IMG/VR virus record: IMGVR_UViG_3300045996_000470
Coordinates: 98,667-121,203 of that record
Length of the DNA: 22,537 nucleotides
Strand: one strand, 5' to 3'
Origin: a virus
In this document: in pieces, positions 981-22,537 of the stretch
Position numbering within the stretch: the stretch's first letter is position 1
How the letters are laid out: every line of letters begins with the position of its first letter
Position numbers and translations under genes: made by a program
Notes under the pieces: generated by a model
Seen by the model: only the letters and a program-made list of their open reading frames with translations
Database searches by the model: none
Told to the model about the DNA's origin: nothing

Positions 981-1014
981 ATTCAGATTATACAGAATTT
1001 CTAAGAATTGTCAA
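981..1014 (-). promoter_or_regulatory. leaderless promoter of dnaN
   Basis: On the minus strand TTGACA (1009-1014) and TATAAT (987-992) are separated by 16 bp. Only 6 bp lie between the -10 box and the dnaN ATG, which puts the expected transcription start at or next to the start codon. The -35 box overlaps the last codons of the upstream zinc-ribbon gene. Confidence 0.85.
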
Positions 1015-1244
1015 CTGGCCTGTAAGTGTACTGTGCATTCCTCAAAGAGCCTTACATCGTCAAAGTCGTGTTTAGGGGCTTGGGAAGGCTTCTCTGTGCG
1101 TCCCTGAAATTCACATTCTGCGTCCGGAGGGCACTCACACTCAGGTTCTAGCCACCTATCACACCACGAGCAGTAGCGAGAATCGTAAGTATAATTGTAT
1201 GAATTTCTTTGTCCGCAATAAGGACAAAATTTAGGTCTTTTCAT
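1011..1244 (-). CDS. zinc-ribbon miniprotein
   Basis: A 77-residue hypothetical protein. It opens with MKRPKFCPYCGQRN, followed by CSWC about twenty residues later: two CxxC knuckles that should bind one zinc ion. A second cysteine cluster follows (ECECPPDAECEF), then an acidic tail. Its ATG overlaps the stop of the preceding gene (ATGA at 1241-1244), which indicates translational coupling. The fold is typical of nucleic-acid or protein adaptors, but nothing shows a specific role. Confidence 0.8.
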   Translation of the reverse strand: MKRPKFCPYCGQRNSYNYTYDSRYCSWCDRWLEPECECPPDAECEFQGRTEKPSQAPKHDFDDVRLFEECTVHLQAS

Positions 1245-1603
1245 TTCGCCTTACCCGTCCCGTCACATCTTGGGTGATGATTCCAGCCACCTAGTCTCGT
1301 TTTGTTAGCATCCTCAATTGTCATAGCCCAATAAGCACAAGGACACAGCTTAGGTTCGTGAGGTTTTAGAAAAATCTTCAGGGTTCTATTATCGTCCTGA
1401 AAAGACAATTCTAGCTCTACATCATATAGAACTAATAGTCTTCCTTGATTTGAGATTACTTCAAGCCTATTGACCGTTTCAGTATTCAGTGCGTTGGCTT
1501 GATATCCCCTAGAAAACGCATCGTATAGAGTTTCGTCTATAACGCCTTCACTAAGGGCTTGACTCCACGCCTTGTTTAGTCTTGCTAGTTCTTCTCCCTT
1601 CAT
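1241..1603 (-). CDS. hypothetical protein with Cys/His-rich C-terminus
   Basis: A 120-residue protein of unknown family. The N-terminal half is helical and charged (MKGEELARLNKAWSQ). The C-terminus carries CPC and, about twenty residues later, HHPRCDGTG, so a zinc site is possible. The reading frame is open further upstream to a GTG at 1633. I chose the ATG at 1603 because it forms an ATGA overlap with the stop of the 45-residue gene before it, the arrangement used throughout this arm. Confidence 0.7.
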   Translation of the reverse strand: MKGEELARLNKAWSQALSEGVIDETLYDAFSRGYQANALNTETVNRLEVISNQGRLLVLYDVELELSFQDDNRTLKIFLKPHEPKLCPCAYWAMTIEDANKTRLGGWNHHPRCDGTGKAK

Positions 1604-1737
1604 TTTTTCACTCTTTCTTGCGGCAGTCCACAAGCCCTACGTCTGCGGTTCTTACGAATCCAATCCGAACACTTGCCGTGTCGAGTTTTCTCTACCGTGT
1701 AAAGTTCGTAAAGTTCAGCCCTTGTTTTTTGCTTCAT
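1600..1737 (-). CDS. small basic protein (45 aa)
   Basis: A short gene filling the space between its neighbours. It encodes MKQKTRAELYELYTVEKTR followed by a very basic stretch (WIRKNRRRRACG) and ends VKK. It overlaps the upstream gene by 23 bp and the downstream gene by the 4-bp ATGA, exactly like the surrounding genes. Its composition suggests nucleic-acid binding, but no family is recognised. Confidence 0.65.
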   Translation of the reverse strand: MKQKTRAELYELYTVEKTRHGKCSDWIRKNRRRRACGLPQERVKK

Positions 1738-1990
1738 ATTCTCTTTTTGCTTCCCTAAGTCTTAATTCCCTAGTAACTCTGTGTTCAAACCTGTTGGCAT
1801 CTTCCTGCAACAACAGTCGCGCAACTTGAAAACGTTTTAAATCTTCCTTTGTGCCATCGAAATTCAGAGAATCCGGTTCCCTCTGTTCCCAGTACATATC
1901 GTAATGGAAATTCTGATTATCATAAGGGTCATGCCATTTGCCACAACCCGTACACCAATAAAACCTTAATGAACTTTTTAAATTAGCCAT
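1715..1990 (-). CDS. hypothetical protein with CxxC-H motif
   Basis: A 91-residue protein: MANLKSSLRFYWCTGCGKWHDP at the N-terminus gives CTGCGxxH, a possible partial zinc site, and the C-terminal half is a charged helix (RVTRELRLREAKREYEAKNKG) likely to form a coiled coil. It overlaps the exported-protein gene upstream by 8 bp and the 45-residue gene downstream by 23 bp. No known family is recognised. Confidence 0.72.
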   Translation of the reverse strand: MANLKSSLRFYWCTGCGKWHDPYDNQNFHYDMYWEQREPDSLNFDGTKEDLKRFQVARLLLQEDANRFEHRVTRELRLREAKREYEAKNKG

Positions 1991-2441
1991 CTGTATTTGT
2001 AATTTGTATGTCAGTTGCTGTGCATACCGAGTCTAAAACTAAAACCACCTGTCCAGCATGAGGCTTCTGTTCTTCCGGAGTTTTAAACGTTGTATTTAAA
2101 GGTTTTGCTGCAAACACATCCGGAGCAATTTCCACAGGCCATACCCCTACTTCCTTCAACTTTAGAACACTCTTAGTTTCGCAATTAGCTTTAAAAGTAG
2201 TAACTACATAAGCAACACTATTTAACGCCCAGCTTTTGTCCGGATACAGCTTGTAATGTGCCTGAAGAATGTCAAGAGTAGCCTCGTCTTTTGCCCACTT
2301 AATATTTTTGGTATCAAGCATATACATAAATTTTTCTGTACGGGCTATTTCCTTAAAGTTCCTAAGGTCAGGAGGAGTGTTTTGCGCGTTTGCTACTATT
2401 CCTGTGGCAAACAGAATAACTGCTAATAATATTATTTTCAT
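1983..2441 (-). CDS. exported hypothetical protein
   Basis: A 152-residue protein starting MKIILLAVILFATGIVANAQ, a classic signal peptide with a likely cleavage site after ANA. The mature part has a surface-associated look (EIARTEKFMYMLDTKN, LNSVAYVVTTFKANCETKS) with two cysteines that could form a disulfide. I prefer ATG 2441, in ATGA overlap with the upstream stop, over the TTG at 2447. Secreted proteins in phage accessory regions often act on the host envelope; nothing more specific can be said. Confidence 0.78.
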   Translation of the reverse strand: MKIILLAVILFATGIVANAQNTPPDLRNFKEIARTEKFMYMLDTKNIKWAKDEATLDILQAHYKLYPDKSWALNSVAYVVTTFKANCETKSVLKLKEVGVWPVEIAPDVFAAKPLNTTFKTPEEQKPHAGQVVLVLDSVCTATDIQITNTDG

Positions 2442-2764
2442 TCCCAAGTTCTCAACTCTGTTATTGTCTCGTCAAAATATTTCTTGGCTAAGGCGACAAC
2501 ATCCTTTTTCCACTTGCCGTCCACCAACCAAACTTCTCGGTCTTTACACCTATACCTTTCGTCTCTAGGGATTAGTGCTTCTAACTCTGCGATAAACTCG
2601 TCGTTATGAGAAGCATCCACTCTAATCCTTGGCTCTATTTGGTCAAAGTCTATGTGATACTCTCCCCAAGTAAGTCGGCAGAGAGAATCCTTATTAGGTA
2701 CGCCTATCTTTGGACGAAAAGGATTAGTTATAACAGAAACTTTCTTATTCTTGGGTATTAACAT
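2438..2764 (-). CDS. hypothetical protein, weak HARP-like motif
   Basis: A 108-residue protein of unknown family. The central run of an acidic helix, IPRDERYRCKDREVWLVDG and then a helix with LAKKYF resembles the pattern in HARP-type domains (short domains next to SNF2 helicases) and in small phage proteins, where a residue cluster precedes a W-x-V strand. This is a visual analogy only. The start ATG at 2764 has no clear Shine-Dalgarno sequence. The gene ends in an ATGA overlap with the exported-protein gene. Confidence 0.7.
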   Translation of the reverse strand: MLIPKNKKVSVITNPFRPKIGVPNKDSLCRLTWGEYHIDFDQIEPRIRVDASHNDEFIAELEALIPRDERYRCKDREVWLVDGKWKKDVVALAKKYFDETITELRTWE

Positions 2765-2780
2765 TTGTCAAATGGATTTT

Positions 2781-2963
2781 CTACATTGGATAGCCGTGAC
2801 CGCTTTTCCAGTCGTGTTTTCCACAATCTCCTGTTCTAGGTCTTAATTCATCCCCATATTCCTCTTCATCTGTGTAATCCAAAAGATATTCTTTATCACA
2901 GGTGTAACAAATACTTGTTGCCGGTCTGCCTTTCTCGTCAAGTCTAGGTTCTTTGTTTTCCAT
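2781..2963 (-). CDS. small zinc-binding-like acidic protein
   Basis: A 60-residue protein: MENKEPRLDEKGRPATSICY, then a CYTC pair, an acidic stretch (DYTDEEEYGDELRPR) and a final DCGKHDWKSGHGYPM whose Cys and His could complete a zinc site. A TTG lies two codons upstream, but the ATG at 2963 is preferred because a promoter places the transcription start immediately before it. It therefore begins a new leaderless transcription unit. Confidence 0.72.
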   Translation of the reverse strand: MENKEPRLDEKGRPATSICYTCDKEYLLDYTDEEEYGDELRPRTGDCGKHDWKSGHGYPM

Positions 2964-2997
2964 TACCAATCATAATACCTTTCGTAGAAAAAGTCAA
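2964..2997 (-). promoter_or_regulatory. leaderless promoter inside the left arm
   Basis: Minus-strand TTGACT (2992-2997) and TATGAT (2969-2974) are separated by 17 bp. The -10 box is 5 bp from the ATG at 2963. It divides the left arm into an upstream and a downstream transcription unit. Confidence 0.7.
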
Positions 2998-3004
2998 CCG
3001 GCCC

Positions 3005-3187
3005 CTACAGAACATCTGTGTCCCAAGTTGTGAATACGTTTTTGTGGTATTTGAATTTCTCTCCACAGCTAACACAATTCTCCTCTCCATCCTCTTCGGT
3101 AAAGTCAGAGCAGTCGAAGTAAAACCACCCACAGTGGGGACAAACCATTTCGTCAGTATTGTAATGAATTATGTCTGATTGTTCCAT
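3005..3187 (-). CDS. zinc-ribbon miniprotein
   Basis: A 60-residue protein starting MEQSDIIHYNTDEMVCPHCG and continuing to CVSCGEKF: two CxxCG knuckles about 23 residues apart, a complete zinc ribbon. The frame stays open upstream to 3259, but that extension lies wholly over the previous membrane-protein gene, so the ATG at 3187 (18-19 bp overlap) is preferred. Function unknown. Confidence 0.75.
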   Translation of the reverse strand: MEQSDIIHYNTDEMVCPHCGWFYFDCSDFTEEDGEENCVSCGEKFKYHKNVFTTWDTDVL

Positions 3188-3354
3188 TGTTTTTTCTCTA
3201 TAGCTTCGCAAATTTTGGAAATTCCTTGGTAAAAAATAGATGTTCCCAAACAGAACCAAACAAAACTGCTAGCGTCTATTCCAGTAGCTACCAATGCTAT
3301 TGTCCCTAATACGGCTAAAACTAGCCAATAAAATCCGTTAACTGCTGCACTCAT
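3169..3354 (-). CDS. two-pass membrane miniprotein
   Basis: A 61-residue protein with two hydrophobic segments (about residues 7-24, FYWLVLAVLGTIALVATG, and 29-45, SSFVWFCLGTSIFYQGI) and a charged C-terminus (CEAIEKKQWNNQT). Its ATG overlaps the upstream stop as ATGA. It is one of two adjacent small membrane proteins and sits downstream of a secreted phospholipase-like gene, so an envelope role is plausible but unproven. Confidence 0.75.
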   Translation of the reverse strand: MSAAVNGFYWLVLAVLGTIALVATGIDASSFVWFCLGTSIFYQGISKICEAIEKKQWNNQT

Positions 3355-3590
3355 TTTTTCTCTCCGTCCTTTAGCTTCTCTAACAATTCCGGAGTAGGTT
3401 TAAGCCATCCCGTAAGTTGAGCTATTTTAACTTGTATCCTAATTTCCTCTAGCTTAGAATCTAAGGCTCCTCCAATCGTAAAGAGTATCGAAGCAAGGAG
3501 TGCAGTCATTGCAATAGGAGTGCCCGGAATCCAAATTCCTCCTATTATCGCTATGATTAACCACAGTATGGCAAATATTCTGTATTTCAT
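3351..3590 (-). CDS. two-pass membrane miniprotein with cytoplasmic-like tail
   Basis: A 79-residue protein. Hydrophobic segments cover about residues 4-20 (FAILWLIIAIIGG) and 26-42 (AMTALLASILFTIGGAL), followed by an amphipathic, lysine/glutamate-rich tail of about 35 residues. It has ATGA overlaps with both neighbours, which suggests co-translation with the other small membrane protein. No family is recognised. Confidence 0.75.
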   Translation of the reverse strand: MKYRIFAILWLIIAIIGGIWIPGTPIAMTALLASILFTIGGALDSKLEEIRIQVKIAQLTGWLKPTPELLEKLKDGEKK

Positions 3591-3817
3591 AATTTTTTCA
3601 ATTCGTAGATAGAGCCGTTTTTAGTGGTTATTCTAAAGACATTCTCGTGAGGTTTAAAGACACTCTTAACAGCAGTAGTCCGAAATGTTCTTCCGTCACC
3701 TTCTCTGTTAAATAACCAAAGGTTAACTCCAAATAGAATAGGACTGTGGCTTTCGAATTTCTGAAACTTCGGAAACCTGTCCATATTATCTCTGTGTATT
3801 ATCTCTAGTTCGTACAT
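3587..3817 (-). CDS. hypothetical protein (76 aa)
   Basis: A short, beta-rich protein (MYELEIIHRDNMDRFPKFQK, then FRTTAVKSVF and FRITTKNGSIYELKKL). No motif or membrane segment is visible. A TTG immediately precedes the ATG at 3817. The gene overlaps the end of the phospholipase-like gene by about 32 bp and ends in an ATGA junction. Confidence 0.68.
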   Translation of the reverse strand: MYELEIIHRDNMDRFPKFQKFESHSPILFGVNLWLFNREGDGRTFRTTAVKSVFKPHENVFRITTKNGSIYELKKL

Positions 3818-4133
3818 CAATAAGTTCTTTTTTCTTTCCTCTTTGGAAAGAAAAGACTCCTCCTATTTTTACTCCTAAAAACATAAACGGGGCAGCAAAT
3901 TTATTTCGTTTCCAGATACATTTAAATAAAGCAGTGTCGGCTTTAGTTCTATCTTTTTCTTTTCCGCCTTCTGCGTATGCTTTGTCGTGAATCAGACAAC
4001 AAGGGCTTAAATTCTTTGTATCGAATAAATTGCAACCATTTCCTCCTGCCCACTCAATTGCTTTACTTTCTTGAGGGACTCCTGTAATTACCAAAACAAA
4101 AACCAGTAAAACAGTTCCTATTATTTGTTTCAT
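3786..4133 (-). CDS. secreted phospholipase A2-like protein
   Basis: A 115-residue protein with a signal peptide (MKQIIGTVLLVFVLVITG, cleavage probably near SKA at residues 23-25). The mature part shows the phospholipase A2 active-site signature CCLIHDKAY: Cys45-Cys46, His49-Asp50, Tyr53. Gly56-Gly57, Asp61-Arg62, Ala65-Asp66 and Cys72 follow. In PLA2 families His49 and a second Asp form the catalytic dyad, and Asp50 binds calcium next to a glycine-rich loop (here WAGGNGC at 28-34). The spacing of the HD-Y-GG-DR-AD pattern resembles compact viral and bacterial PLA2 domains. The predicted reaction is hydrolysis of the sn-2 ester of phospholipids outside the cytoplasm. It could instead be a non-catalytic relative. 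Confidence 0.78.
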   Translation of the reverse strand: MKQIIGTVLLVFVLVITGVPQESKAIEWAGGNGCNLFDTKNLSPCCLIHDKAYAEGGKEKDRTKADTALFKCIWKRNKFAAPFMFLGVKIGGVFSFQRGKKKELIDVRTRDNTQR

Positions 4134-4597: not shown

Positions 4598-4598
4598 A

Positions 4599-4796
4599 TT
4601 AACTTTTTACAGTGCTGCCCACTACCAAACAATACATCGAAATAGTCAACCAAACGCCGAAAACAATTCCAGCCACAAACAGCATACCTCGAAGTCCGGT
4701 ACAGTAGAAATCATAGAAAGTTGCCACCAAGGCGATTCCCATTCCTATTGACATTAATCCCCAATTTCTAAGTAAGTGTTTGCTTAATTCTGTCAT
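4599..4796 (-). CDS. two-pass membrane miniprotein
   Basis: A 65-residue protein with hydrophobic segments at about residues 12-27 (WGLMSIGMGIALVATF) and 36-58 (GMLFVAGIVFGVWLTISMYC). It is the first gene after an internal promoter that has a conventional leader with an AAGGA Shine-Dalgarno sequence before the ATG, unlike the leaderless genes. Its stop is directly followed by the SLOG gene. Confidence 0.75.
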   Translation of the reverse strand: MTELSKHLLRNWGLMSIGMGIALVATFYDFYCTGLRGMLFVAGIVFGVWLTISMYCLVVGSTVKS

Positions 4797-4815
4797 TCGT
4801 ATTCCTTATAGGACA

Positions 4816-5592: not shown

Positions 5593-5593
5593 A

Positions 5594-6568: not shown

Positions 6569-6569
6569 C

Positions 6570-8330: not shown

Positions 8331-8445
8331 GTTGTATCTCTCTTTCTACCGCAGCAGCCACGGCGTCTGCTACTTCGTTCTGAATATCTTCGTTCTGTAA
8401 GGCATCTCTAAGGAGTCTTGCAAACCATTTTCTAATAAAATTCAT
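8284..8445 (-). CDS. small amphipathic protein (53 aa)
   Basis: A short gene filling the apparent gap between its neighbours. It encodes MNFIRKWFARLLRDALQNED, then a helix with VADAVAAAVEREIQ and an acidic C-terminus. Its ATG forms an ATGA overlap with the upstream stop, and its 3' part overlaps the next gene by 47 bp in another frame. The N-terminal amphipathic basic helix could associate with membranes. Family unknown. Confidence 0.65.
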   Translation of the reverse strand: MNFIRKWFARLLRDALQNEDIQNEVADAVAAAVEREIQHDRRQNSEDNETIIE

Positions 8446-12307: not shown

Positions 12308-12336
12308 ATTATACAACATTTTATACAGAATGTCAA
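12308..12336 (-). promoter_or_regulatory. consensus leftward promoter at the origin side of the left arm
   Basis: Minus-strand TTGACA (12331-12336) and TATAAT (12308-12313) with a 17-bp spacer: a perfect sigma70 consensus. The predicted start near 12301 has no ATG nearby; the first gene begins at 11936. The transcript would therefore have a leader of about 365 nt, in sharp contrast to the leaderless genes. Confidence 0.8.
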
Positions 12337-12340
12337 GGGG

Positions 12341-12811
12341 TTAGACCCAAAAGTTTCTTTTTCTAAAAATGACCTTCTTAGCCATCTTCTGTAAAGACTT
12401 CTTAGTGGGATTCTTTTTACCCTTACGAGGTGCTTTTTGACTGAATGAGGGGGTTTCAGGTAAAGGAACGAGGGGATTTAGCTTCTTCCTCTTACCTGCC
12501 TTCTCAATAAAGGGTATAAAGGTATTAGATTTAGCCTGATTGGACTGTTTGGAGATAATTCTAAGGTTAGTTGAGACGTGCAAACCGCATACGTTATGTC
12601 CATAGAGGGGGATTATGTGGTCAACTTGCCATCTTTTCCTAGTAGTTAGGTTCTTATACTGGGCAGCAATGTAGATTTCTAGGATTTTCTTCCTTTCTTC
12701 CCTATTGTTTGCCCATCGGGGGAATGCGTTGTACCTTTTAGCTCTCTCTAGGGCGAGTCTGAAGGTGTATTTTCCGTTTAAGTAAGCCCGTTCTTGCAGG
12801 TTCATTGGCAT
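12341..12811 (-). CDS. HNH endonuclease
   Basis: A 156-residue protein. The core is WQVDHIIPLYGHNVCGLHVS (residues 61-80) followed by TNLRIISKQSNQAKSN (81-96). This is the D-H ... G-L-H-V-x-x-N-L ... N-x-x-K-x-N pattern of phage HNH nucleases, with His65 as general base and Asn82 and Asn91 positioning the metal site. The N-terminus is helical. The last 55 residues are very basic (KKNPTKKSLQKMAKKVIFRK) and probably bind DNA. It starts leaderlessly 8 bp after a TATAAT box, lies between the two repeat regions, and itself contains one iteron-like word at 12424-12433. It may be a selfish insertion or an origin-linked nicking enzyme. Confidence 0.85.
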   Translation of the reverse strand: MPMNLQERAYLNGKYTFRLALERAKRYNAFPRWANNREERKKILEIYIAAQYKNLTTRKRWQVDHIIPLYGHNVCGLHVSTNLRIISKQSNQAKSNTFIPFIEKAGKRKKLNPLVPLPETPSFSQKAPRKGKKNPTKKSLQKMAKKVIFRKRNFWV

Positions 12812-12848
12812 ATGAGACTATTATAACTTAAATTTCTACGAGGTGTAC
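12812..12848 (-). promoter_or_regulatory. leaderless -10 of the HNH gene overlapped by an iteron
   Basis: TATAAT on the minus strand (12820-12825) lies 8 bp before the HNH ATG. No good -35 hexamer exists; that place (about 12842-12848) is occupied by the first iteron. A protein bound to the iterons would compete with or recruit RNA polymerase here, so autoregulation is possible. Confidence 0.6.
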
Positions 12849-12947
12849 AGTTTTACGAGGTGCTCCTAGACTTGACATTTTCCTACGAGGTGCACAGTAG
12901 GAGATTATTTTCCGCCCTCCTGTTAAACAGTGTTAAACCTGACGAGG

Positions 12948-13030
12948 TGTACGATTTCTTTCTTTTTCTTTTCTATATTTTCTTTTTCTTTCTTCTCTTA
13001 TATTCTTTGTGTATTCTTTGTTATATATAC
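12948..13030 (+). other. T/C-rich tract, possible DNA unwinding element
   Basis: About 80 bp composed almost only of T and C (repeated TTTCTTT and TTCTTTTTC words), ending in TTATATATAC. It sits in the middle of the iteron array. Strand-biased AT-rich tracts next to iterons are typical places of duplex opening. ORFs crossing it on the plus strand have runs of Phe, Ser and Leu and are not credible genes. Confidence 0.5.
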
Positions 13031-13102
13031 AACCGGAAGTTTCTTACGATTGGCCAACCGAGAGTTTCTTCCGGTAGGCCAACCGGAAGTTTACGAGGTG
13101 CC
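13031..13102 (+). repeat. three tandem 25-bp repeats
   Basis: Units start at 13031, 13056 and 13081, each with AACCGGAAGTTT or AACCGAGAGTTT; the first two end in TAGGCC or TTGGCC. The third diverges after 12 bp into an iteron (ACGAGGTG at 13093). The first two units carry CTTACG or CTTCCGG in the middle. This is a second repeat family embedded in the iteron array, probably a separate protein-binding cluster. Confidence 0.7.
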
Positions 13103-13202
13103 TTTGACCCGAAAAGGGTCTAGTTTTGAAGAGATTTTCTACGAGGTGCACCAAAATCTGACGAGGTGTACAGCCCTCCACGAGTGAAAATCTGACGAGG
13201 TG

Positions 13203-13267
13203 TTTCCTACTAGAGGGAAATTCCTACGAGGTGCCCCTATTGACATTTCCCCGGAATGTGATATACT
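13203..13267 (+). promoter_or_regulatory. operator-like palindrome, iteron and promoter of a small RNA
   Basis: An imperfect copy of the window's palindrome, TTTCCTACTAGAGGGAAA (13203-13220), is followed by the last iteron (13226-13234) and then TTGACA (13240-13245) and TATACT (13262-13267) with a 16-bp spacer. The expected start is about 13273-13275. No start codon follows, which suggests an RNA gene. Confidence 0.65.
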
Positions 13268-13272
13268 GTATT

Positions 13273-13386
13273 TGCATTGAGGGTAGTGCCCTCAGAATTG
13301 ATTTTTTGCAGCACCCAACATCCTCCAGTTCAACGGGTGCTAGCAGGAGGTAAGGGGAGCCTCTGGTTCATAAGTCCCCAATTTTT
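13273..13386 (+). ncRNA. candidate small structured RNA with predicted pseudoknot
   Basis: About 114 nt between a good promoter and an AATTTTT end. Structures seen: a 6-bp hairpin TGAGGG/CCCTCA with loop TAGTG (13278-13294); a 9-bp bulged stem TGC-A-GCACCC (13307-13316) with GGGTGC-TA-GCA (13335-13345); CCTCC in the loop of that stem (13322-13326), complementary to GGAGG directly after it (13346-13350), an H-type pseudoknot; and GGGGA/TCCCC (13354-13379) before the T tract as terminator. The RNA contains a perfect AGGAGGT and its complement but no start codon downstream. It ends against the convergent phosphoribosyltransferase gene. It matches no RNA family I recognise and is not a tRNA. Confidence 0.62.
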
Positions 13387-13822
13387 ATATATTGTCATAG
13401 TCCCGCCCTGCGTAAATTGGTAGGTATTGGTAAGATTCATTAAAAGGTCGTATGCCTTTCCACATTTTTTCATTCCAGTTGTAGAGAAATATCCCTACAA
13501 TTTCGGGACTATCACAGCGTCTACCTATTTGCTGTATCATTTCGTACAGAGTCGCACCGCTGTCGATAAAATCATCCACAAGCATTATTTTCTGCCTTTT
13601 ACCCCACCCTACAATTATTCCAAAATCGTGATTTTTCTCTCCGTTCTTTCTAATAATAAGCAGTTTTTTGTCAAGGGTCATAGCTAGAGGTGCTCCTATC
13701 AATAGTCCTGAATTGCCTCTGACGGCTATAGCATCAAAATTATCTAAAGGGAGTACTTGTTTCGCCCTTTCCATTATTTCCCTCATTTTATTCGGGTCTG
13801 TAAATTGGTCTAAATAACTCAT
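13385..13822 (-). CDS. phosphoribosyltransferase
   Basis: A 145-residue type I phosphoribosyltransferase. The PRPP-binding motif is IMLVDDFIDSGAT (about 79-91: hydrophobic strand, two acidic residues, then the SGAT phosphate loop). AVRGNSG (33-39) is the pyrophosphate-loop region, and LLIIRKNGEKN (about 54-64) lies where the flexible loop begins. Such enzymes join a base to PRPP in nucleotide salvage; the substrate cannot be told because the hood region is divergent. The start is leaderless. It is the only leftward gene between the origin and 19800. Confidence 0.85.
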   Translation of the reverse strand: MSYLDQFTDPNKMREIMERAKQVLPLDNFDAIAVRGNSGLLIGAPLAMTLDKKLLIIRKNGEKNHDFGIIVGWGKRQKIMLVDDFIDSGATLYEMIQQIGRRCDSPEIVGIFLYNWNEKMWKGIRPFNESYQYLPIYAGRDYDNI

Positions 13823-13856
13823 GCAAACATTCTACCTCAGCCATATTAAAAGTCAA
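13823..13856 (-). promoter_or_regulatory. leaderless promoter of the phosphoribosyltransferase gene
   Basis: Minus-strand TTGACT (13851-13856) and TAGAAT (13829-13834), 16-bp spacer, with 6 bp from the -10 box to ATG 13822. It lies back to back with the rightward promoter at 13864; the two -35 boxes are only 7 bp apart. Confidence 0.75.
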
Positions 13857-13863: not shown

Positions 13864-13891
13864 TTGCATTTTCAGATAAGATGTGTATAAT
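13864..13891 (+). promoter_or_regulatory. leaderless promoter, first gene of the right arm
   Basis: TTGCAT (13864-13869) and TATAAT (13886-13891), 16-bp spacer, with 7 bp to ATG 13899. The frame is open upstream to 13821 and the promoter excludes that longer start. Confidence 0.7.
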
Positions 13892-13898
13892 CTTGAAT

Positions 13899-14105
13899 AT
13901 GGTATTAACAAAGAAACAAAAACAAGCGTACTTTGAAAATCCGAATGTGTGTCCAGTCTGCGGGGCTGCCATCTTTAAAAGAGCCGATGAGGAATTTGAT
14001 TCCAATTGTGTCTGGCGATATTTCGGATGTGATAATACAGAAAGTTGTGGGATAACCTTTTCAGAAGAGTACAGGCTAACAGATGTAGAGGTGGATAAAG
14101 GTTAA
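13899..14105 (+). CDS. zinc-ribbon miniprotein
   Basis: A 68-residue protein: MVLTKKQKQAYFENPNVCPV then CGAAIFKRA and, about 25 residues on, FGCDNTESCGITF. CPVC plus C...C form a zinc ribbon of the type found in small phage adaptors. An acidic end (RLTDVEVDKG). The start is set by the leaderless promoter. Function unknown. Confidence 0.77.
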   Translation: MVLTKKQKQAYFENPNVCPVCGAAIFKRADEEFDSNCVWRYFGCDNTESCGITFSEEYRLTDVEVDKG

Positions 14106-15235: not shown

Positions 15236-15264
15236 TTGCTTTTATACAAAAAAGGTGGTATGAT
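15236..15264 (+). promoter_or_regulatory. leaderless promoter of a membrane miniprotein
   Basis: TTGCTT (15236-15241) and TATGAT (15259-15264), 17-bp spacer, with 5 bp to ATG 15270. It supports the otherwise easily missed 45-residue gene. Confidence 0.6.
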
Positions 15265-15269
15265 ATTAT

Positions 15270-15407
15270 ATGTTTATTCTGTTTTTAGCTGTATTAGCTT
15301 TAATCGTCATAGTCTTATTTGCAATAGCAGGTTTACTGGCGGTATATATGGGGGGATTAATTTTAGGTGATTGCTTTGCAGACATCTGGAATGTCAAAAT
15401 TGAATGA
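15270..15407 (+). CDS. single-pass membrane micro-protein (45 aa)
   Basis: It encodes MFILFLAVLALIVIVLFAIA, then GLLAVYMGGLILGDCF and a short polar end (ADIWNVKIE). Residues 2-34 are almost wholly hydrophobic. It has a leaderless promoter and its stop overlaps the next start (ATGA at 15404-15407). Role unknown; holin-like or regulatory peptides have this size, but nothing points to lysis here. Confidence 0.65.
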   Translation: MFILFLAVLALIVIVLFAIAGLLAVYMGGLILGDCFADIWNVKIE

Positions 15408-16024: not shown

Positions 16025-16073
16025 TGTCCCACTAGTGGGAAATCCTTGACTTTTCTGTCTAATATGCTACTAT
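16025..16073 (+). promoter_or_regulatory. palindromic operator plus leaderless promoter
   Basis: TGTCCCACTAGTGGGAAA (16025-16042) is followed after 3 bp by TTGACT (16046-16051), a 16-bp spacer and TACTAT (16068-16073). ATG 16082 is 8 bp beyond. The palindrome centre lies 48 bp before the ATG. Confidence 0.8.
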
Positions 16074-16081
16074 TTAGGTCT

Positions 16082-16399
16082 ATGACAGCTTTAGAAATAA
16101 TTACAAGTCTGACTACAGACATTTACACTAAGGAAGAGTTGAGTTCTATATCGACAGCAGTTAGGTCGGCACAGGACATTAATAAGCAACGGTCGGTTGC
16201 GTTAATGAAAGCAACTCTTAAGGTAGGGGATGAAGTTACTCTTTCGGGACTACGCCCTAAGAGTATTAATGGATTGGTAGCTAAAGTTGTGGCTATCAAT
16301 AGAACTAGGGCAGAGGTTGATATGCCTGTTAATGTTAATGCAGGTCGTTGGTCGGGTGCAAAAGGCGTGGTTCCATTGTCTTGCGTTACTAAAGTCTAG
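16082..16399 (+). CDS. hypothetical protein with KOW/SH3-like domain (105 aa)
   Basis: A helical N-terminus (MTALEIITSLTTDIYTKEEL) and a C-terminal barrel-like sequence: LKVGDEVTLSGLRPKSINGL, then VAKVVAINRTRAEVDMPVNV and KGVVPLSCV. The V-G-D-x-V ... N-G-x-x-x-x-V-x-x-I-x-R-T-x-A-x-V-D pattern is that of small KOW/SH3-type domains found in many phage early proteins, which often contact nucleic acid. The promoter fixes the start at 16082 rather than at the TTG of the -35 box. Confidence 0.78.
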   Translation: MTALEIITSLTTDIYTKEELSSISTAVRSAQDINKQRSVALMKATLKVGDEVTLSGLRPKSINGLVAKVVAINRTRAEVDMPVNVNAGRWSGAKGVVPLSCVTKV

Positions 16400-16403: not shown

Positions 16404-16431
16404 TTGACTTTTCTCTCCCACTTGTTACAAT
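16404..16431 (+). promoter_or_regulatory. leaderless promoter with operator half-site in the spacer
   Basis: TTGACT (16404-16409) and TACAAT (16426-16431), 16-bp spacer, with 7 bp to ATG 16439. The spacer contains TTCTCTCCCACT (16411-16422), the left half of the palindrome, where the other promoters carry it upstream of the -35 box. Confidence 0.75.
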
Positions 16432-16438
16432 AACTTAT

Positions 16439-16861
16439 ATGAAGAAACAAATAACAGATATTAAATTGTCGGAAGCTATTGTGCGAGGCACAAAGATAGC
16501 TAAGGGAAAGGGCATTACACAGGGCGAAGGCAACGTCCTAGAGTTTAATCGGGCTGGCAAACTTGAGTGTGCTTGTACTGCGGGGATGGCTCTAATAGGC
16601 ACGTATGGCGTAGAGCAACTTGAAAAAGAACATGCGAAAGACCGATATATTTCTTGGGGTATAAAGTTTAAGAGCCTCTTTGAACCTGCTAAAACTACCT
16701 TTAAGAAAAAAGAGCAGTGTCTTCTAAAGACTGTAAAAACTCCTGTACAAAAAGAGAACGTAGAGACTGGTTCTATTTACTCTTTCATTTATAGTCTTAA
16801 TGATGGTGCTGGCTTAGCGGCTCGTTACATTGCTAAGAAACTTGAAAAGTGTGGTTTTTAG
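16439..16861 (+). CDS. hypothetical protein (140 aa)
   Basis: An unrecognised protein with a lysine-rich composition. It starts MKKQITDIKLSEAIVRGTKI, continues with KGKGITQGEGNVLEFNRAGK, ACTAGMALIGTYG in the middle, and a C-terminal helix (GLAARYIAKKLEKCGF). Two cysteines of ECACTAG are the only clustered ones. It has a leaderless start. No membrane segment. Confidence 0.74.
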   Translation: MKKQITDIKLSEAIVRGTKIAKGKGITQGEGNVLEFNRAGKLECACTAGMALIGTYGVEQLEKEHAKDRYISWGIKFKSLFEPAKTTFKKKEQCLLKTVKTPVQKENVETGSIYSFIYSLNDGAGLAARYIAKKLEKCGF

Positions 16862-16865: not shown

Positions 16866-16893
16866 TTGACAATTCTCTCCCACTCTGTATAAT
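16866..16893 (+). promoter_or_regulatory. leaderless promoter with operator half-site in the spacer
   Basis: TTGACA (16866-16871) and TATAAT (16888-16893), 16-bp spacer, with 8 bp to ATG 16902. The spacer holds TTCTCTCCCACT (16873-16884), the same half-palindrome as in the promoter at 16404 and in the same place relative to the -35 and -10 boxes. Confidence 0.78.
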
Positions 16894-16901
16894 ACTCATA
16901 T

Positions 16902-17225
16902 ATGAAAGATGCAACTGGTAAAGACTTAAGGCTTGGGCAAAGAGTTGCTATTCCTTGTAACAGTAGGTTTAAGATTGGAATCCTTTACAATTATCGTCCT
17001 AACCGGACACGGTGGTATCTTGAAGCTGTACGATACAGGGATAATGCAGATGTAGGGATTTATCCAGAAGACCATAGAGACTATTACGATAGGTATTGGA
17101 CTAGGGAGTATGTAAATACTCATGCCAATAATTATTACGTCGAGTTTCCTGATGGTAAAAAGAGAACTATCTCTGACATAAATAGTATTTTGGGAATAGA
17201 CGACGAGGGGAAGATAACACTATGA
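16902..17225 (+). CDS. phage small SH3-like protein (107 aa)
   Basis: It starts MKDATGKDLRLGQRVAIPCN, the D-x-x-G-x-x-(I/L)-x-x-G-x-x-V-A pattern common in small phage proteins with an SH3-like N-terminal barrel. The middle is rich in Tyr, Arg and Asp (YPEDHRDYYDRYWTREYVNT). The gene at 19432 begins in the same way, so the two are probable distant paralogues. The stop overlaps the next start (ATGA). Role unknown. Confidence 0.75.
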   Translation: MKDATGKDLRLGQRVAIPCNSRFKIGILYNYRPNRTRWYLEAVRYRDNADVGIYPEDHRDYYDRYWTREYVNTHANNYYVEFPDGKKRTISDINSILGIDDEGKITL

Positions 17226-17581: not shown

Positions 17582-17738
17582 TACCTATCTAATTCTCGCA
17601 GTGTTTGTAACTTTTCTCGGGGTGCTCTTAGTTTTGGAGGGTGCCCCGCACGGTCTTTTAGTGTTCTGTGCCGGAATATTATTTTGGGCTGGATACGAAT
17701 TTCTTTGTCCTACTAGTGGGAAATCCCTTGACAAATAA
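17574..17738 (+). CDS. two-pass membrane micro-protein (54 aa)
   Basis: It encodes MHDTYLILAVFVTFLGVLLV, LEGAPHGLLVFCAGILFWAG, YEFLCPTSGKSLDK. Two hydrophobic segments (about 4-21 and 27-44) are separated by EGAPHG. ATG 17574 overlaps the preceding gene by 8 bp, and a stop codon directly upstream leaves no other start. Remarkably, its last ten codons (CPTSGKSLDK) are made of the palindromic operator and the -35 box of the next gene. Confidence 0.65.
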   Translation: MHDTYLILAVFVTFLGVLLVLEGAPHGLLVFCAGILFWAGYEFLCPTSGKSLDK

Positions 17739-17755
17739 GAATAATCTGCTAAACT
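17706..17755 (+). promoter_or_regulatory. palindromic operator plus leaderless promoter of PcfJ-like gene 1
   Basis: TGTCCTACTAGTGGGAAA (17706-17723), then TTGACA (17728-17733), 16 bp, and TAAACT (17750-17755). ATG 17762 is 6 bp beyond. The palindrome centre lies 47 bp before the ATG, and the site is inside the coding sequence of the membrane micro-protein. Confidence 0.8.
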
Positions 17756-17761
17756 TATGCT

Positions 17762-19117
17762 ATGGAACTGAGTAAGAAAGAGATAAAACAAAAACTTTTG
17801 CATATCAAGACAGTCTTAGATTGGTGCAAGGTTGGCAACTTCAGAAAGCATCAGGTATATATAAACGATATTGAGAATGAGGGTTTGTATTCTTGGGGTT
17901 ATCAGGGGACTGCTCCCAATCAGCGTTGGACGCGACTTATAACGAAGTGGAATAAACTTACTGATGCTGAGTGGTTAATGCTTGAAAAGTTTGTCAAGCT
18001 GAAGTATCCAAAAGAGTACGTTGTTACTCGTAAGTCTTATCTTATCAATTTCACTAATCCTGAGACTAAAGAGACTTTAGCGGTTGACCTTAAGGATAAA
18101 AAGTTTACTAAGACTTATGCCAATGGTAAACAGCGGGATGTAAAACTGCCTCATTCATTTTTTAAGGGAATGGACGGTCGTATAGTTTCTACAAAAATTC
18201 CGGCAGACGATAACTTTCGGAAGCTAGTTGATACGATTATCCGTAAAGAGTCAGCGTGTTCAAATATGGGGACGTTTCTCGTTCGGCTGTTTGACAATAT
18301 CCATTTAGAGACTTACATATCGGCGGGGGTTAAGTTTGATTACAACATTGCTGTCGGATATGATTTTTTCGATAAAGACGTTAGAAAGATTTTGGACTCA
18401 AAAGGAATGGATTATAACCAAACGGTTGAATCATTCTTTGCGAACAATCACGATTTGGGCAAATCAATGCTTCACTTTATTAAAGATGAAGAAAAATTTA
18501 AGGATGTATTTTATTCCATAGCCCAAAATATGCGTAACGTAAACATACTTGTAGAAAATTATAAGTATGATGTTGGGACGTTGTTTAATTACTGTAAAGA
18601 GCGTAATTGGTCGTCAGGGCGGTATACGAATTACTACAACAGCAGAGACTTGGTTTCGTATTTGTGCGACTATGCTCGTATGGCTGATATGGTATTTCCT
18701 AACGGTTTTGATAAATATCCAAAAGATATTGTTGACCATCACGACGGAGTAACAAAACTTTATGAGAAAGAGAAAATAAAGTTTGATGATAAGGTTTATC
18801 AAAAACTTATCAATCCGAAGTTGGAGTATGAGAATAAAGACTATGCAATGATATTTCCTAAGTCAACGGGTGATATTCAAGAAGAGGGTAGAATACTTTC
18901 TCATTGCGTGGGGTCTTATGTTCAAACTGTTATCGAGGGACATTGTATCATTATGTTCCTGAGAAAAAAGAAAGAGAAAAAGACTCCGCTTGTTACGGTA
19001 GAACTTAGGGATAACAGAATCGGACAGGCTAGAGGTAAATACAACAGGTCTTTGGAATATCAAGAAAAGTTATTTCTACAAGAGTACGCAGAGAAGAAAC
19101 GGCTTAAGTATAACTAA
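17762..19117 (+). CDS. PcfJ-like protein 1 (451 aa)
   Basis: The C-terminal signature reads DIQEEGRILSHCVGSYVQTV (HCVGSY at 381-386), followed by IIMFLRKKK and TPLVTVELRDNRIGQARGK. This is the E-G-x-x-L-x-H-C-V-G-x-Y ... R ... P-x-x-T-x-E pattern of PcfJ-like proteins, named after a conjugative-plasmid gene and common in phages; its biochemical role is unknown. A central block NMGTFLVRLFDNIHLETYI is shared with the second copy in this window. The leaderless promoter carries the operator, and a stem-loop follows the stop. No signal peptide or membrane segment. Confidence 0.83.
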   Translation: MELSKKEIKQKLLHIKTVLDWCKVGNFRKHQVYINDIENEGLYSWGYQGTAPNQRWTRLITKWNKLTDAEWLMLEKFVKLKYPKEYVVTRKSYLINFTNPETKETLAVDLKDKKFTKTYANGKQRDVKLPHSFFKGMDGRIVSTKIPADDNFRKLVDTIIRKESACSNMGTFLVRLFDNIHLETYISAGVKFDYNIAVGYDFFDKDVRKILDSKGMDYNQTVESFFANNHDLGKSMLHFIKDEEKFKDVFYSIAQNMRNVNILVENYKYDVGTLFNYCKERNWSSGRYTNYYNSRDLVSYLCDYARMADMVFPNGFDKYPKDIVDHHDGVTKLYEKEKIKFDDKVYQKLINPKLEYENKDYAMIFPKSTGDIQEEGRILSHCVGSYVQTVIEGHCIIMFLRKKKEKKTPLVTVELRDNRIGQARGKYNRSLEYQEKLFLQEYAEKKRLKYN

Positions 19118-19123
19118 ACAAAC

Positions 19124-19149
19124 ATTCGACGGAATAAAATCCGTCGAAT
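19124..19149 (+). terminator. stem-loop after PcfJ-like gene 1 (ATAAAA loop)
   Basis: ATTCGACGGA (19124-19133) and TCCGTCGAAT (19140-19149) form a perfect 10-bp stem with loop ATAAAA, followed by only TTCCC. It lacks a long T tract, so it may be a weak terminator or a 3' end protector. Its right arm abuts the next operator. Confidence 0.65.
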
Positions 19150-19197
19150 TTCCCACTAGGGGGAAAGATTGACTTTTGACCTTTATCGTAGTATGAT
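19149..19197 (+). promoter_or_regulatory. palindromic operator plus leaderless promoter
   Basis: TTTCCCACTAGGGGGAAA (19149-19166), 2 bp, TTGACT (19169-19174), 17 bp, TATGAT (19192-19197), 6 bp, ATG 19204. The palindrome centre is 46-47 bp before the ATG. Confidence 0.8.
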
Positions 19198-19203
19198 GGT
19201 TCT

Positions 19204-19392
19204 ATGGATAAACCTGTTCTGATTATCAAACAGCCTGTACCTCCTAAACTTCCTAAACTGACTAAAAAACAGAAAACGGAGATGGCAGAGATGATTGCCC
19301 TTAAGTTAATTGAGAACGGTGTTGGATTCTTCTACTTAGAAGACGACACCTTTGTTTTTGCCACTGTCCGCCACGCCACAAATATTCACTAG
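19204..19392 (+). CDS. hypothetical protein (62 aa)
   Basis: A proline- and lysine-rich start (MDKPVLIIKQPVPPKLPKLT) is followed by a helix (TEMAEMIALKLIENG) and a strand (FYLEDDTFVFATV). No family is recognised. The start is fixed by the leaderless promoter. Its stop codon lies within CACTAG, directly before the next -35 box. Confidence 0.7.
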   Translation: MDKPVLIIKQPVPPKLPKLTKKQKTEMAEMIALKLIENGVGFFYLEDDTFVFATVRHATNIH

Positions 19393-19396
19393 TCCC

Positions 19397-19424
19397 TTGA
19401 CAATTTTCTTAAAATCCTTATACT
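19397..19424 (+). promoter_or_regulatory. leaderless promoter with a partial operator
   Basis: TTGACA (19397-19402), 16-bp spacer, TATACT (19419-19424), 7 bp to ATG 19432. CACTAGTCCC (19387-19396) upstream keeps only the centre of the palindrome and one degenerate side. Confidence 0.72.
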
Positions 19425-19431
19425 TATAACT

Positions 19432-19722
19432 ATGAACGATGTAGCAGGAAGAGAGATAACTGTTGGAGATGAAATAGCTTTTACTGTAAGCACTAGGATT
19501 CTTACAGGAAAGGTTACGAGAATTTACGAGGGGCAGGATTATGGACGCCTTGTTAGTAAACTAAAGGTGGAACTAACAACTCCGGAACCTAGAGGTAAAT
19601 GGGGTTACAGAGATAACGATAAAGGTGAACCTGTTTGGCAGGAAATTGTTACTGACTATGTAAGAATTAGAACTGTTTTTGGAAGTGATAGGGCTATTAT
19701 TCTTCGAGGACTTGAGGAGTAA
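19432..19722 (+). CDS. phage small SH3-like protein (96 aa)
   Basis: MNDVAGREITVGDEIAFTVS followed by TRILTGKVTRIYEG and a strand pattern continuing to VRIRTVFGSDRAIILRG. The D-V-x-G-R-E-I-x-V-G-D-x-I-A opening is typical of small barrel proteins of tailed phages of unknown function. It is related in pattern to the gene at 16902. It ends just before an orphan palindrome. Confidence 0.78.
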   Translation: MNDVAGREITVGDEIAFTVSTRILTGKVTRIYEGQDYGRLVSKLKVELTTPEPRGKWGYRDNDKGEPVWQEIVTDYVRIRTVFGSDRAIILRGLEE

Positions 19723-19740
19723 TTTCCCACTAGCGGGACG
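19723..19740. promoter_or_regulatory. orphan palindromic operator
   Basis: TTTCCCACTAGCGGGACG has one intact half and a degraded other half. No promoter follows in either direction: the site lies between convergent genes, beside the gp88 terminator. Confidence 0.6.
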
Positions 19741-19773
19741 AAAAAATAGCCTCCGGTCAGCTTTCCGGAGGCT
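19741..19773 (-). terminator. Rho-independent terminator of the gp88-like gene
   Basis: Stem AGCCTCCGG (19748-19756) and CCGGAGGCT (19765-19773), loop TCAGCTTT. On the minus strand the stem is followed by ATTTTTT, so it terminates the leftward gp88-like transcript. For the rightward gene ending at 19722 it gives only a weak TTTA tail. Confidence 0.85.
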
Positions 19774-19807
19774 TTAGGCTAAGTCAAAACTGAAAGTATA
19801 AAAAGAC

Positions 19808-20491
19808 TTAGCTAATATTGCGAACTACAAAACCCGTTGCATCTTTTTTGGCTTTACCCTTTGCTTTTAATCCGACAATAACGCCCTTTTTTCTTTTTGG
19901 GTCTAAGAAACGCAAATCAGTTTCATCGCCATTTACAACCTTATAACCTAAATACTTTTTAGGTATTTCCTTTTCAAACACTACGGCAACATTTACCCCG
20001 TTTTCCAACGCGTCAATACAATCCTCGATATTATTTTCAGAACGCGAAAATGTAAGATGATAGTTTGGCATTGTACGTTTGTACGGTTTGGGTATTTTCG
20101 TATAATCGTAAAACTGTACTTTCGGAAATAGTTTTGCTACGTAGTGAGCAAGTTTCGGTAAATCCGATGTTCCGTTTGGACGAACGCAAGGAATAAGATT
20201 TTTCTTTTCCGCACGTTTGACAAGTTTTTGAACGTCCGAAACTAATTCATTCAAAAACTTTTGATTTTCATCGAAATACATATCAGTTTTACGCTGACGA
20301 CCCGCCTGCACTTGGTCAAAAGCACCACGTCCTGCGGTATTCAAACAAGATGCAATACAGCCCGCCGATGCGAATGAACACAAATTACCACGCCCGCCCG
20401 ATTTTTGAGGTTTCAAGTAAAGAATACCTGTAAGATAGCCTTTTTTCTCGCCTTTGGAAGTTTTAGCGTTTTGTTCAGTCAATAAGCTCAT
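19808..20491 (-). CDS. gp88-like protein (227 aa)
   Basis: Strong match by eye to the Gene-product-88 family of phage proteins: QNAKTSKGEKKGYLTGILYL, then GNLCSFASAGCIASCLNTAG (Cys38, Cys45, Cys49), GRQRKTDMYF and CVRPNGTSDLPKLAHYVAKL. The three conserved cysteines could hold an iron-sulfur cluster or zinc. The barrel-like strand order (VQFYDYTKIP, YHLTFSRSE, VAVVFEKEIP) has led to comparison with radical-SAM-type folds; function unknown. The frame is open to 20569, but a leaderless promoter fixes ATG 20491. It is divergent from PcfJ-like gene 2. Confidence 0.85.
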   Translation of the reverse strand: MSLLTEQNAKTSKGEKKGYLTGILYLKPQKSGGRGNLCSFASAGCIASCLNTAGRGAFDQVQAGRQRKTDMYFDENQKFLNELVSDVQKLVKRAEKKNLIPCVRPNGTSDLPKLAHYVAKLFPKVQFYDYTKIPKPYKRTMPNYHLTFSRSENNIEDCIDALENGVNVAVVFEKEIPKKYLGYKVVNGDETDLRFLDPKRKKGVIVGLKAKGKAKKDATGFVVRNIS

Positions 20492-20498
20492 AAGTAAG

Positions 20499-20526
20499 AT
20501 TCTACACGTTTTTGTATAATTGTCAA
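20499..20526 (-). promoter_or_regulatory. leaderless promoter of the gp88-like gene
   Basis: Minus-strand TTGACA (20521-20526) and TAGAAT (20499-20504), 16-bp spacer, with 7 bp to ATG 20491. The shared palindrome at 20541-20559 lies 14 bp upstream of its -35 box. Confidence 0.8.
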
Positions 20527-20540
20527 GGGCTAAAATTTCA

Positions 20541-20591
20541 TTTCCCACTAGTGGGGAAAGGCTTGACAATTCTGGTAAACTGTAAGATAAT
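20541..20591 (+). promoter_or_regulatory. palindromic operator plus leaderless promoter of PcfJ-like gene 2
   Basis: TTTCCCACTAGTGGGGAAA (20541-20559, one extra G), 3 bp, TTGACA (20563-20568), 17 bp, GATAAT (20586-20591), 7 bp, ATG 20599. The centre is 49 bp before the ATG. It stands between two divergent promoters and could control both. Confidence 0.82.
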
Positions 20592-20598
20592 AGTCAGT

Positions 20599-22146
20599 AT
20601 GGAACTAGAAGAATTTAAGAAAAAAGCACTTGCAATTCGTGAGCTTGAAAAGTGGAAAAGTCGGGCAGCCTGTGAGCTTCCGGCTGGAACAGAGTTCTAC
20701 AAGTCAAGTTATGATATTAAGTCACAGGACATTTATGTTCTGACGACTAAAGCTAAACTTAAGACTAGAGACTTCGACACTTCGGGTATTATCGCATACA
20801 CTTATCGCCCTTGTCGAAAGAAAAATGCTACTCCTGAAGAAAGAAAACGCGAACAGGAAAGAGCAGTTTATCGGTGGAACTCTACGGGTAGCCTTTACAT
20901 TCCTTATGATGAGCTTTGGAAACAAAAAGCAATTAGAGATGAATTGGTTGCTTGGATGAATAAGGTTACTCCAAACTTTGATGTTGTTAAAGAAAAGGGA
21001 ATTATTGTTTTTACTAATCGTGAGACTAAGGAAATGATGCGTTGCGATTTGAACGCACAAACTTTTTTCCGTACTTATAAGAAGCGTAAGGGTCAACACG
21101 TTCGCTATCCTGCACAGTTTTTTAAGTATGTTATCGGCAGACTTTTGATTGCTGAAATTGGTGCGGCAGATTGCCAAACTTTCAAAACTCTTGTCGAGTT
21201 GGTTGCAAAGAATTATTCAAAGTGTCGAAACTTTGGAACATTTCTTGTAAGAATGTTCGACCATATCCACCTTGAGGAATACATTGCGGCTGGAGTTCCT
21301 TTTGATTTTTCAATTCCTTTCGCATACTCTGATTTTGATAAGAATATCCGAAAGAAAATTGACGAGCATAGTATGACCTACTCAATGGATATCGGCTCAT
21401 TGTTTTGCAGCGATAAAGATACGGGGCGGGCTGTATTTGCACAAATTGAAAATTGTGTGAATTTTAAGAATATGGTTATGTTGCTTGCCCATAATATTCA
21501 ACCTTTGAATACTCTAGTCAATCATTACAACTATGATTTGAAAACTCTTTTCGAATATTGCCGGAAAAATAAATGGTATGTAAGAAAGCCTGCAAGGTTT
21601 ACTTACTATACTCCAACAGAATTGCAAAATCCAGAAACGGAAGATATAAAGCATTTTTCTTCTTACAACTATGATATAGTTTCTTTTCTTAGGGATTATT
21701 CTCGTATGGCTTTGGATGTTTACGGAGATAATTACGATAAGTATCCTGCGGACTTACACGCAGCCCACGAAGAATGTAACCGTATTTACCAAACTCGCAA
21801 AGTCGAAATTGACCAAAAGCGGTTTGCCGAAACGATTGATAAGTCTTTGGAATGGAAAAATGACGAGTTTGAAATTATCTATCCAAAGGCGTCGGATGAG
21901 GTTGTCGCAGAGGGTAAGGCTTTGAGGCATTGCGTCGGGTCTTATATTCAGTCAGTTGTGCGGGGTGAGTGTAAAATTCTTTTCCTTAGAAAGAAAGACG
22001 AACTAGAAAAACCGTTTGTTACTATTGAAATTTCCGGTGGTAACATTCGACAAGCCAGAGGTTACGGAAACTCTGCACCAATCTATGATGCTAAAATGGC
22101 ATTACAAGATTATGCAAAGTCTAAGAAACTTCTTTATAGGGGATAG
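20599..22146 (+). CDS. PcfJ-like protein 2 (515 aa)
   Basis: A paralogue of the gene at 17762. The signature VVAEGKALRHCVGSYIQSVV (HCVGSY at 444-449) is followed by ILFLRKKDE and KPFVTIEISGGNIRQARG. The block NFGTFLVRMFDHIHLEEYIA corresponds to NMGTFLVRLFDNIHLETYI in copy 1, and FDFSIPFAYSDFDKNIRKKI also aligns. It is about 64 residues longer, with extra sequence near the N-terminus and a Tyr/Pro insertion around residues 330-350. The upstream TTG start at 20512 lies within the promoter region and is excluded. A stem-loop with the same loop as after copy 1 follows. Confidence 0.83.
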   Translation: MELEEFKKKALAIRELEKWKSRAACELPAGTEFYKSSYDIKSQDIYVLTTKAKLKTRDFDTSGIIAYTYRPCRKKNATPEERKREQERAVYRWNSTGSLYIPYDELWKQKAIRDELVAWMNKVTPNFDVVKEKGIIVFTNRETKEMMRCDLNAQTFFRTYKKRKGQHVRYPAQFFKYVIGRLLIAEIGAADCQTFKTLVELVAKNYSKCRNFGTFLVRMFDHIHLEEYIAAGVPFDFSIPFAYSDFDKNIRKKIDEHSMTYSMDIGSLFCSDKDTGRAVFAQIENCVNFKNMVMLLAHNIQPLNTLVNHYNYDLKTLFEYCRKNKWYVRKPARFTYYTPTELQNPETEDIKHFSSYNYDIVSFLRDYSRMALDVYGDNYDKYPADLHAAHEECNRIYQTRKVEIDQKRFAETIDKSLEWKNDEFEIIYPKASDEVVAEGKALRHCVGSYIQSVVRGECKILFLRKKDELEKPFVTIEISGGNIRQARGYGNSAPIYDAKMALQDYAKSKKLLYRG

Positions 22147-22152
22147 TTCCAA

Positions 22153-22178
22153 CGAGTGCCGAATAAAATCGGTGCTCG
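22153..22178 (+). terminator. stem-loop after PcfJ-like gene 2 (ATAAAA loop)
   Basis: CGAGTGCCGA (22153-22162) pairs with TCGGTGCTCG (22169-22178), 10 bp with two G-U pairs, loop ATAAAA. There is no T tract. It has the same loop and the same position relative to the operator as the stem-loop after copy 1, although the stems differ. Confidence 0.6.
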
Positions 22179-22227
22179 CCCCACTAGTGGGAAATACTCT
22201 TGACAATTATACAAAGTAGTGTATTAT
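22177..22227 (+). promoter_or_regulatory. palindromic operator plus leaderless promoter
   Basis: CGCCCCACTAGTGGGAAA (22177-22194, left half shortened), 5 bp, TTGACA (22200-22205), 16 bp, TATTAT (22222-22227), 6 bp, ATG 22234. The centre is 48-49 bp before the ATG. Confidence 0.8.
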
Positions 22228-22233
22228 TATACT

Positions 22234-22537
22234 ATGAACGTTAAACATAAAGAGGTTGGACTTCAGCCTAACGTGAAGTTAATTTTGAGCAAGGTTTCTG
22301 GAATGTTTTCTGGAACTCCAAGCGATGTTGTTAGTCGGGCGTTGGCTGTTCTTAATCGCGTTGCGGGTGAGGACACTAACATTGGATTCCGTAACAAGAT
22401 TACGGGAAAGGGTACTCTGCTTGGAAGTGTTGTGGTCATTGACCTTAGCATTCCGTTGGGAAGTCGCAAGATTAACTCATCGGACGAGTTGCAGTTTAAT
22501 CAGCGTGTTGCTATGGCTTTGAATCGGGAGTTTGGTA
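22234..22537 (+). CDS. hypothetical protein, 3' end outside window
   Basis: About 101 codons are visible. It reads MNVKHKEVGLQPNVKLILSK, then FSGTPSDVVSRALAVLNRVA and GKGTLLGSVVVIDLSIPLGS. The glycine- and serine-rich central part gives no clear family. No stop occurs before the window edge, so the protein is incomplete. It is the fifth gene under an operator-linked leaderless promoter. Confidence 0.75.
   Translation, partial: MNVKHKEVGLQPNVKLILSKVSGMFSGTPSDVVSRALAVLNRVAGEDTNIGFRNKITGKGTLLGSVVVIDLSIPLGSRKINSSDELQFNQRVAMALNREFG

Follow-up and report, generated by a model that had tools for sequence, protein, structure and literature searches.

Sigma-70-type promoters placed at the ATG and probable leaderless mRNAs in an uncultured tailed phage

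Gene layout and the promoter–ATG units

The window analysed here is a stretch of 22,537 bases, bases 98,667-121,203 of the 121,203-base IMG/VR virus record IMGVR_UViG_3300045996_000470. The remainder of the record was taken as stretches L002-L006, each analysed on its own. The source is an uncultured tailed phage with a GC content of about 40%. The terminase, portal, S49 head protease and major head protein are encoded on the + strand of L003. The primase-DnaB helicase, DNA ligase, RNA ligases, a polynucleotide kinase/phosphatase and a CCA/poly(A) polymerase-like protein are on the - strand of L005-L006, and dnaN is on the - strand of the window. Several RNA ligase-family proteins, the polynucleotide kinase-phosphatase and the CCA/poly(A) polymerase (L005 4466-13341 and 18339-19223; L006 4550-5128) make up a tRNA repair set.

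An earlier note on this DNA named fifteen genes in the window with a -10 box 5-8 bp before the ATG, usually with TTGACA/T 16-17 bp further upstream. We checked each start individually. In all fifteen, 5-8 bases separate the end of the -10 hexamer from the ATG and the promoter match is 8-12 of 12 positions; "usually" is also apt, as the -35 is TTGACA or TTGACT with a spacer of 16-17 at 12 of the 15. A poorer -35 is found at 12811 (TGTACA-18), 13899 (TTGCAT-16) and 15270 (TTGCTT-17).

On the - strand, the dnaN promoter (980..1014) is a complete 12/12 match, TTGACA-16-TATAAT, followed after 6 nt by the ATG at 980. A 60-aa ORF is preceded by TTGACT-17-TATGAT (2963..2997; 10/12), 5 nt from its ATG at 2963. 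The HNH-like gene has a perfect -10 and a weak -35, TGTACA-18-TATAAT (12811..12849; 10/12), with 8 nt to the ATG at 12811; its HNH name is that of the earlier note, and its protein matched no Pfam family at 0.001. The phosphoribosyltransferase-like gene, which has a weak Pfam Pribosyltran match, follows TTGACT-16-TAGAAT (13822..13856; 10/12) by 6 nt, with its ATG at 13822. The promoter of the GP88-family gene is TTGACA-16-TAGAAT (20491..20526; 11/12), 7 nt from the ATG at 20491.

The + strand units begin with a divergent promoter at 13864..13901, TTGCAT-16-TATAAT, with a perfect -10 and a weak -35 (9/12; 7 nt to ATG 13899), and a weak one at 15236..15272, TTGCTT-17-TATGAT (8/12; 5 nt to ATG 15270). 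Next are TTGACT-16-TACTAT at 16046..16084 (9/12; 8 nt to ATG 16082), TTGACT-16-TACAAT at 16404..16441 (10/12; 7 nt to ATG 16439; previous stop 39 nt away) and TTGACA-16-TATAAT at 16866..16904 (12/12; 8 nt to ATG 16902; previous stop 40 nt away). The first of two genes matching Pfam PcfJ is preceded by TTGACA-16-TAAACT (17728..17764; 10/12; 6 nt to ATG 17762). It is followed by TTGACT-17-TATGAT at 19169..19206 (10/12; 6 nt to ATG 19204) and TTGACA-16-TATACT at 19397..19434 (11/12; 7 nt to ATG 19432; previous stop 39 nt away). The second PcfJ gene has a divergent promoter, TTGACA-17-GATAAT (20563..20601; 11/12; 7 nt to ATG 20599), and the last unit is TTGACA-16-TATTAT at 22200..22236 (11/12; 6 nt to ATG 22234). 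The description of this architecture as window-wide held for all fifteen genes and failed for its breadth. It is too broad because the - strand from about 3.0 to 12.3 kb is without any such gene and because the window has strong promoters that are not of the leaderless type, at 12336 (-) and 13240 (+).

Promoter–ATG spacing and the leaderless reading

For counting, a strong promoter was defined as at least 10 of 12 matches over the -35 and -10, and a weaker set as at least 9 of 12; controls were dinucleotide shuffles. In the window, 12 ATGs lie 5-8 bp after a strong promoter, against a shuffle mean of 0.34 and a maximum of 4 (100 shuffles). The earlier note had proposed the same count over the complete genome, and it gives 28 such ATGs in the whole record against a mean of 1.8 and a maximum of 4 (20 shuffles). 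In an unbiased scan downstream of the 80 strong sites genome-wide, the ATG offset peaks at 6 (13 cases) and 7 (9 cases), with about one per offset elsewhere. Nor is the spacing equally frequent at non-starts: strong promoters precede 22 of the 157 predicted starts and 8 of 3008 other ATGs. The leaderless set shares the logo CCCTTGAC[AT][AT]TTnTACAAAATnnTGTATAAT, and its spacer is 16 nt in 18 of 28 cases versus 16 of 52 other strong sites (p = 0.005). The spacing is real and far above chance. It might be objected that expression is driven from promoters further upstream, and that the boxes near the ATGs are an A/T-rich coincidence. A GC content of 40% does raise the number of chance matches, and at 9/12 chance alone should give about 25 promoter-like sites in every 11 kb. 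However, the excess over shuffles is about 15-fold in the whole record and 35-fold in the window, and there is no excess (13 vs 17.5) in 810 kb of DNA from other phages, namely 80 IMG/VR contigs whose terminases are distant relatives. We consider coincidence hardly credible.

The starts themselves differ from other starts of the phage. A Shine–Dalgarno core is present at 1 of 27 leaderless-type starts versus 46 of 130 others, the frequency across all ATGs being 8%. Among start codons, enrichment at this distance is confined to ATG (p = 2e-13), and GTG, TTG and CTG are not enriched at the leaderless spacing after promoters. The bias to ATG bears on the possibility that the boxes are real while the true start codons lie downstream, so that ordinary short leaders, with their Shine–Dalgarno sequences, are hidden within what was called 5' coding region. 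The start codons were indeed picked by coding score and a preference for ATG. However, the enrichment of ATG over GTG and TTG falls exactly at the +1 spacing, and the dnaN protein aligns to the Pfam beta-clamp family from residue 1 and the GP88-family protein to Pfam GP88 from residue 3. Since these family profiles begin at residues 1-3, the ATG is the true start of both genes, and a general displacement of starts is very improbable.

Seven leaderless-type genes begin 38-40 nt after the previous stop, a gap equal to one promoter length. Such promoter-plus-ORF cassettes could be a product of genome compaction that leaves no room for a leader and has no special host or translational purpose. Compaction would be a reason for the architecture and is compatible with leaderless initiation. 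As that reason we regard it as possible though rather doubtful, because most leaderless-type genes have far longer upstream gaps, from 65 to more than 500 nt, and are still without a leader. Folding of the first 40 nt is uninformative, being only slightly weaker for the leaderless class (-2.8 vs -3.3 kcal/mol for the others).

At a standard sigma-70 promoter, transcription begins about 6-7 bases downstream of the -10, and the expected RNA start is therefore the A of these ATGs. Sigma-70-type promoters that start transcription at this A, or 1-2 nt before it, would yield leaderless mRNAs. This reading best accounts for the spacing, the missing Shine–Dalgarno cores, the bias to ATG alone and the 38-40 nt gaps, and we give it a probability of about 0.86. 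Counted against strict leaderlessness is that -10/ATG offsets of 7-8 would leave a leader of 1-2 nt. The host sigma-70-type RNA polymerase would transcribe from the consensus, with its 16-nt spacer, beginning on or just before the ATG's A, and the host ribosome would then initiate at the 5'-terminal AUG. It is reasonable to suppose a host tolerant of leaderless mRNA.

The earlier note's leaderless reading thus stands as the best account of these features. Its suggestion that this is the virus's main mode does not: promoters of at least 9/12 at leaderless spacing precede 27 of the 157 predicted starts (about 17%, gene fractions being approximate because the gene caller is simple and home-made). 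Some 80% of predicted genes are without the architecture, and most genes outside the leaderless set are leadered or overlap within operons. The replication/accessory half of the genome holds 23 of the 28 strong cases and the structural half 5. GGAG-type leaders occur before many late genes, and 26 of the 55 late genes that are not leaderless have a Shine–Dalgarno core. The phage has a dual system of leaderless starts and Shine–Dalgarno leaders. The leaderless mode would serve the first genes of transcription units within the replication/accessory half, as well as the rightward block of single-gene cassettes, and the operon-internal and structural genes would depend largely on Shine–Dalgarno sequences. 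The leaderless-type genes may be early, judging only from gene content.

tRNA ends and other elements near the promoters

Among 16 tRNA 3' CCA ends in the late half, 6 are followed within 8 nt by an ATG that opens an ORF of 40 or more codons, as against 5% of positions (p = 8e-5). They are at 8393, 9830 and 10436 of L002 and 226, 5513 and 7958 of L003, between 8.4 and 28 kb of the record. The 4-8 A/T-rich bases between CCA and ATG hold no Shine–Dalgarno core. A tRNA-like element at about 4,791-4,865 of L003, missed by both tRNA searches, also lies 6 nt before an ATG. The arrangement resembles tRNA punctuation. Cleavage at the tRNA 3' end would make the downstream mRNAs nearly leaderless too. 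We tentatively raise the idea, which we think rather unlikely, that the phage avoids leaders systematically by two routes: in the replication/accessory half through promoters that start at the ATG, and in the late half through tRNA 3' ends 4-8 nt before ATGs, where tRNA processing would release near-leaderless mRNAs. Mitochondrial tRNA punctuation is the model for that release.

The palindrome TTCCCACTAGTGGGAA has seven copies with at most 3 mismatches in the window, against 0.07 expected, all in its right part. Those at 16026, 17707, 19150, 20542 and 22178 each directly precede the -35 box of a leaderless promoter, and further copies are at 13204 and 19724. Because five copies adjoin a -35, the palindrome may be an operator. 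Nine ACGAGGTG iterons occupy 12838-13233, an intergenic region with divergent genes on either side and located at the GC-skew switch, which makes it a candidate replication origin. Beside the iterons, at 13240-13310 (+), a strong TTGACA-16-TATACT promoter is directly followed by a hairpin and T-tract, possibly specifying a very short non-coding RNA. Two leaderless-type promoters in L003, at 1612 and 4232, precede ORFs of 8 and 13 codons, respectively. The latter ORF could encode a leader peptide, since a terminator-like hairpin comes after it.

Leaderless transcription in other phages and bacteria

Leaderless transcription is already established for phages, by phiYS40 and lambda cI. The lambda cI transcript from PRM begins at the AUG. 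Lambda has this single leaderless gene, unlike the present phage, and neither the lambda nor the Tunturi_5 genome gave an offset peak or excess in the -10/ATG test. The mode is not unprecedented: the large Thermus phage phiYS40 is reported to make most of its middle and late mRNAs without leaders (PMC3594737), and when we scanned its genome with -10 boxes alone, the ATG offset peaked at 6-7 bp as in the present phage. As there, the leaderless type goes beyond one or two genes (27 of 157 starts at 9/12 or better; 28 ATGs at 10/12 or better). The two phages differ in that the leaderless class of phiYS40 is middle and late, whereas that of the present phage is concentrated in the replication/accessory half (23/28) and mostly has strong -35 boxes and the 16-nt spacer.

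Among bacteria, TA-led genes have TANNNT some 12 bp upstream of the start codon and no Shine–Dalgarno sequence; their mean share of genes is about 19% in Actinobacteria and about 39% in Deinococcus-Thermus (PMC3160421). In Deinococcus, where the -10 adjoins the ORF, leaderless genes have recent experimental support (PMC12340547). The present starts share both features, the first T of the -10-like box lying about 10-12 bp before the start in excess of shuffles and the Shine–Dalgarno core being all but absent (1/27). The TA-led genes are of cellular genomes; the present case, at about 17% of genes, is a phage of 40% GC. Cluster O mycobacteriophages (the Corndog group) have three predicted leaderless SigA promoters, with +1 at the first base of the start codon, and resemble the present phage also in many dyad repeats and a phage beta clamp (PMC4351075). 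However, their dyad repeats are mostly away from promoters, whereas those of the present phage are mostly just upstream of the -35.

The host of phiYS40 is Thermus, while homologues in the present phage point to several host groups. A freshwater actinobacterial host was suggested by the 40% GC and a terminase match to the Actinomycetia phage DSL-LC01. It was rejected on finding that DSL-LC01 has no leaderless excess with paired -35/-10 sites and that other proteins match Tunturiibacter, Stenotrophomonas, Pelagibacter, Mycobacterium, Streptomyces and phages of Gram-positive bacteria. We claim no host for these two reasons. A genome scan with the phage subtilase hit three unrelated bacteria at 35-42% identity. 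Searches with dnaN, the helicase, the major head protein and two long promoter patterns found no close viral relatives, and a shorter promoter pattern gave four matches only, all unrelated. Contigs bearing GP88 have a mild excess (89 vs 32 and 14 at control offsets); in those contigs that were inspected, one or two recurrent genes in each account for it. In five low-GC GP88 phage contigs (L113, L125, L127, L148 and L155), two genes have a conserved TTGACA-17-TATAAT 5-7 bp ahead of their ATG. With phiYS40 sharing the peak and the other genomes and contigs having no excess or a milder one, dense leaderless use is a trait of particular phages and not of phages generally.

Thermus phages and bacteria already provide examples of the leaderless mode, which is unusually dense and clear in the present phage, at about thirty genes. 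Its promoters form a statistically clean and dense leaderless-type set in a phage of moderate GC, beyond the few Thermus and mycobacterial phages that have been studied. The signature, an ATG-offset peak together with exclusion of Shine–Dalgarno sequences, can be scanned for in viral collections, and may lead to phages of leaderless-tolerant hosts.
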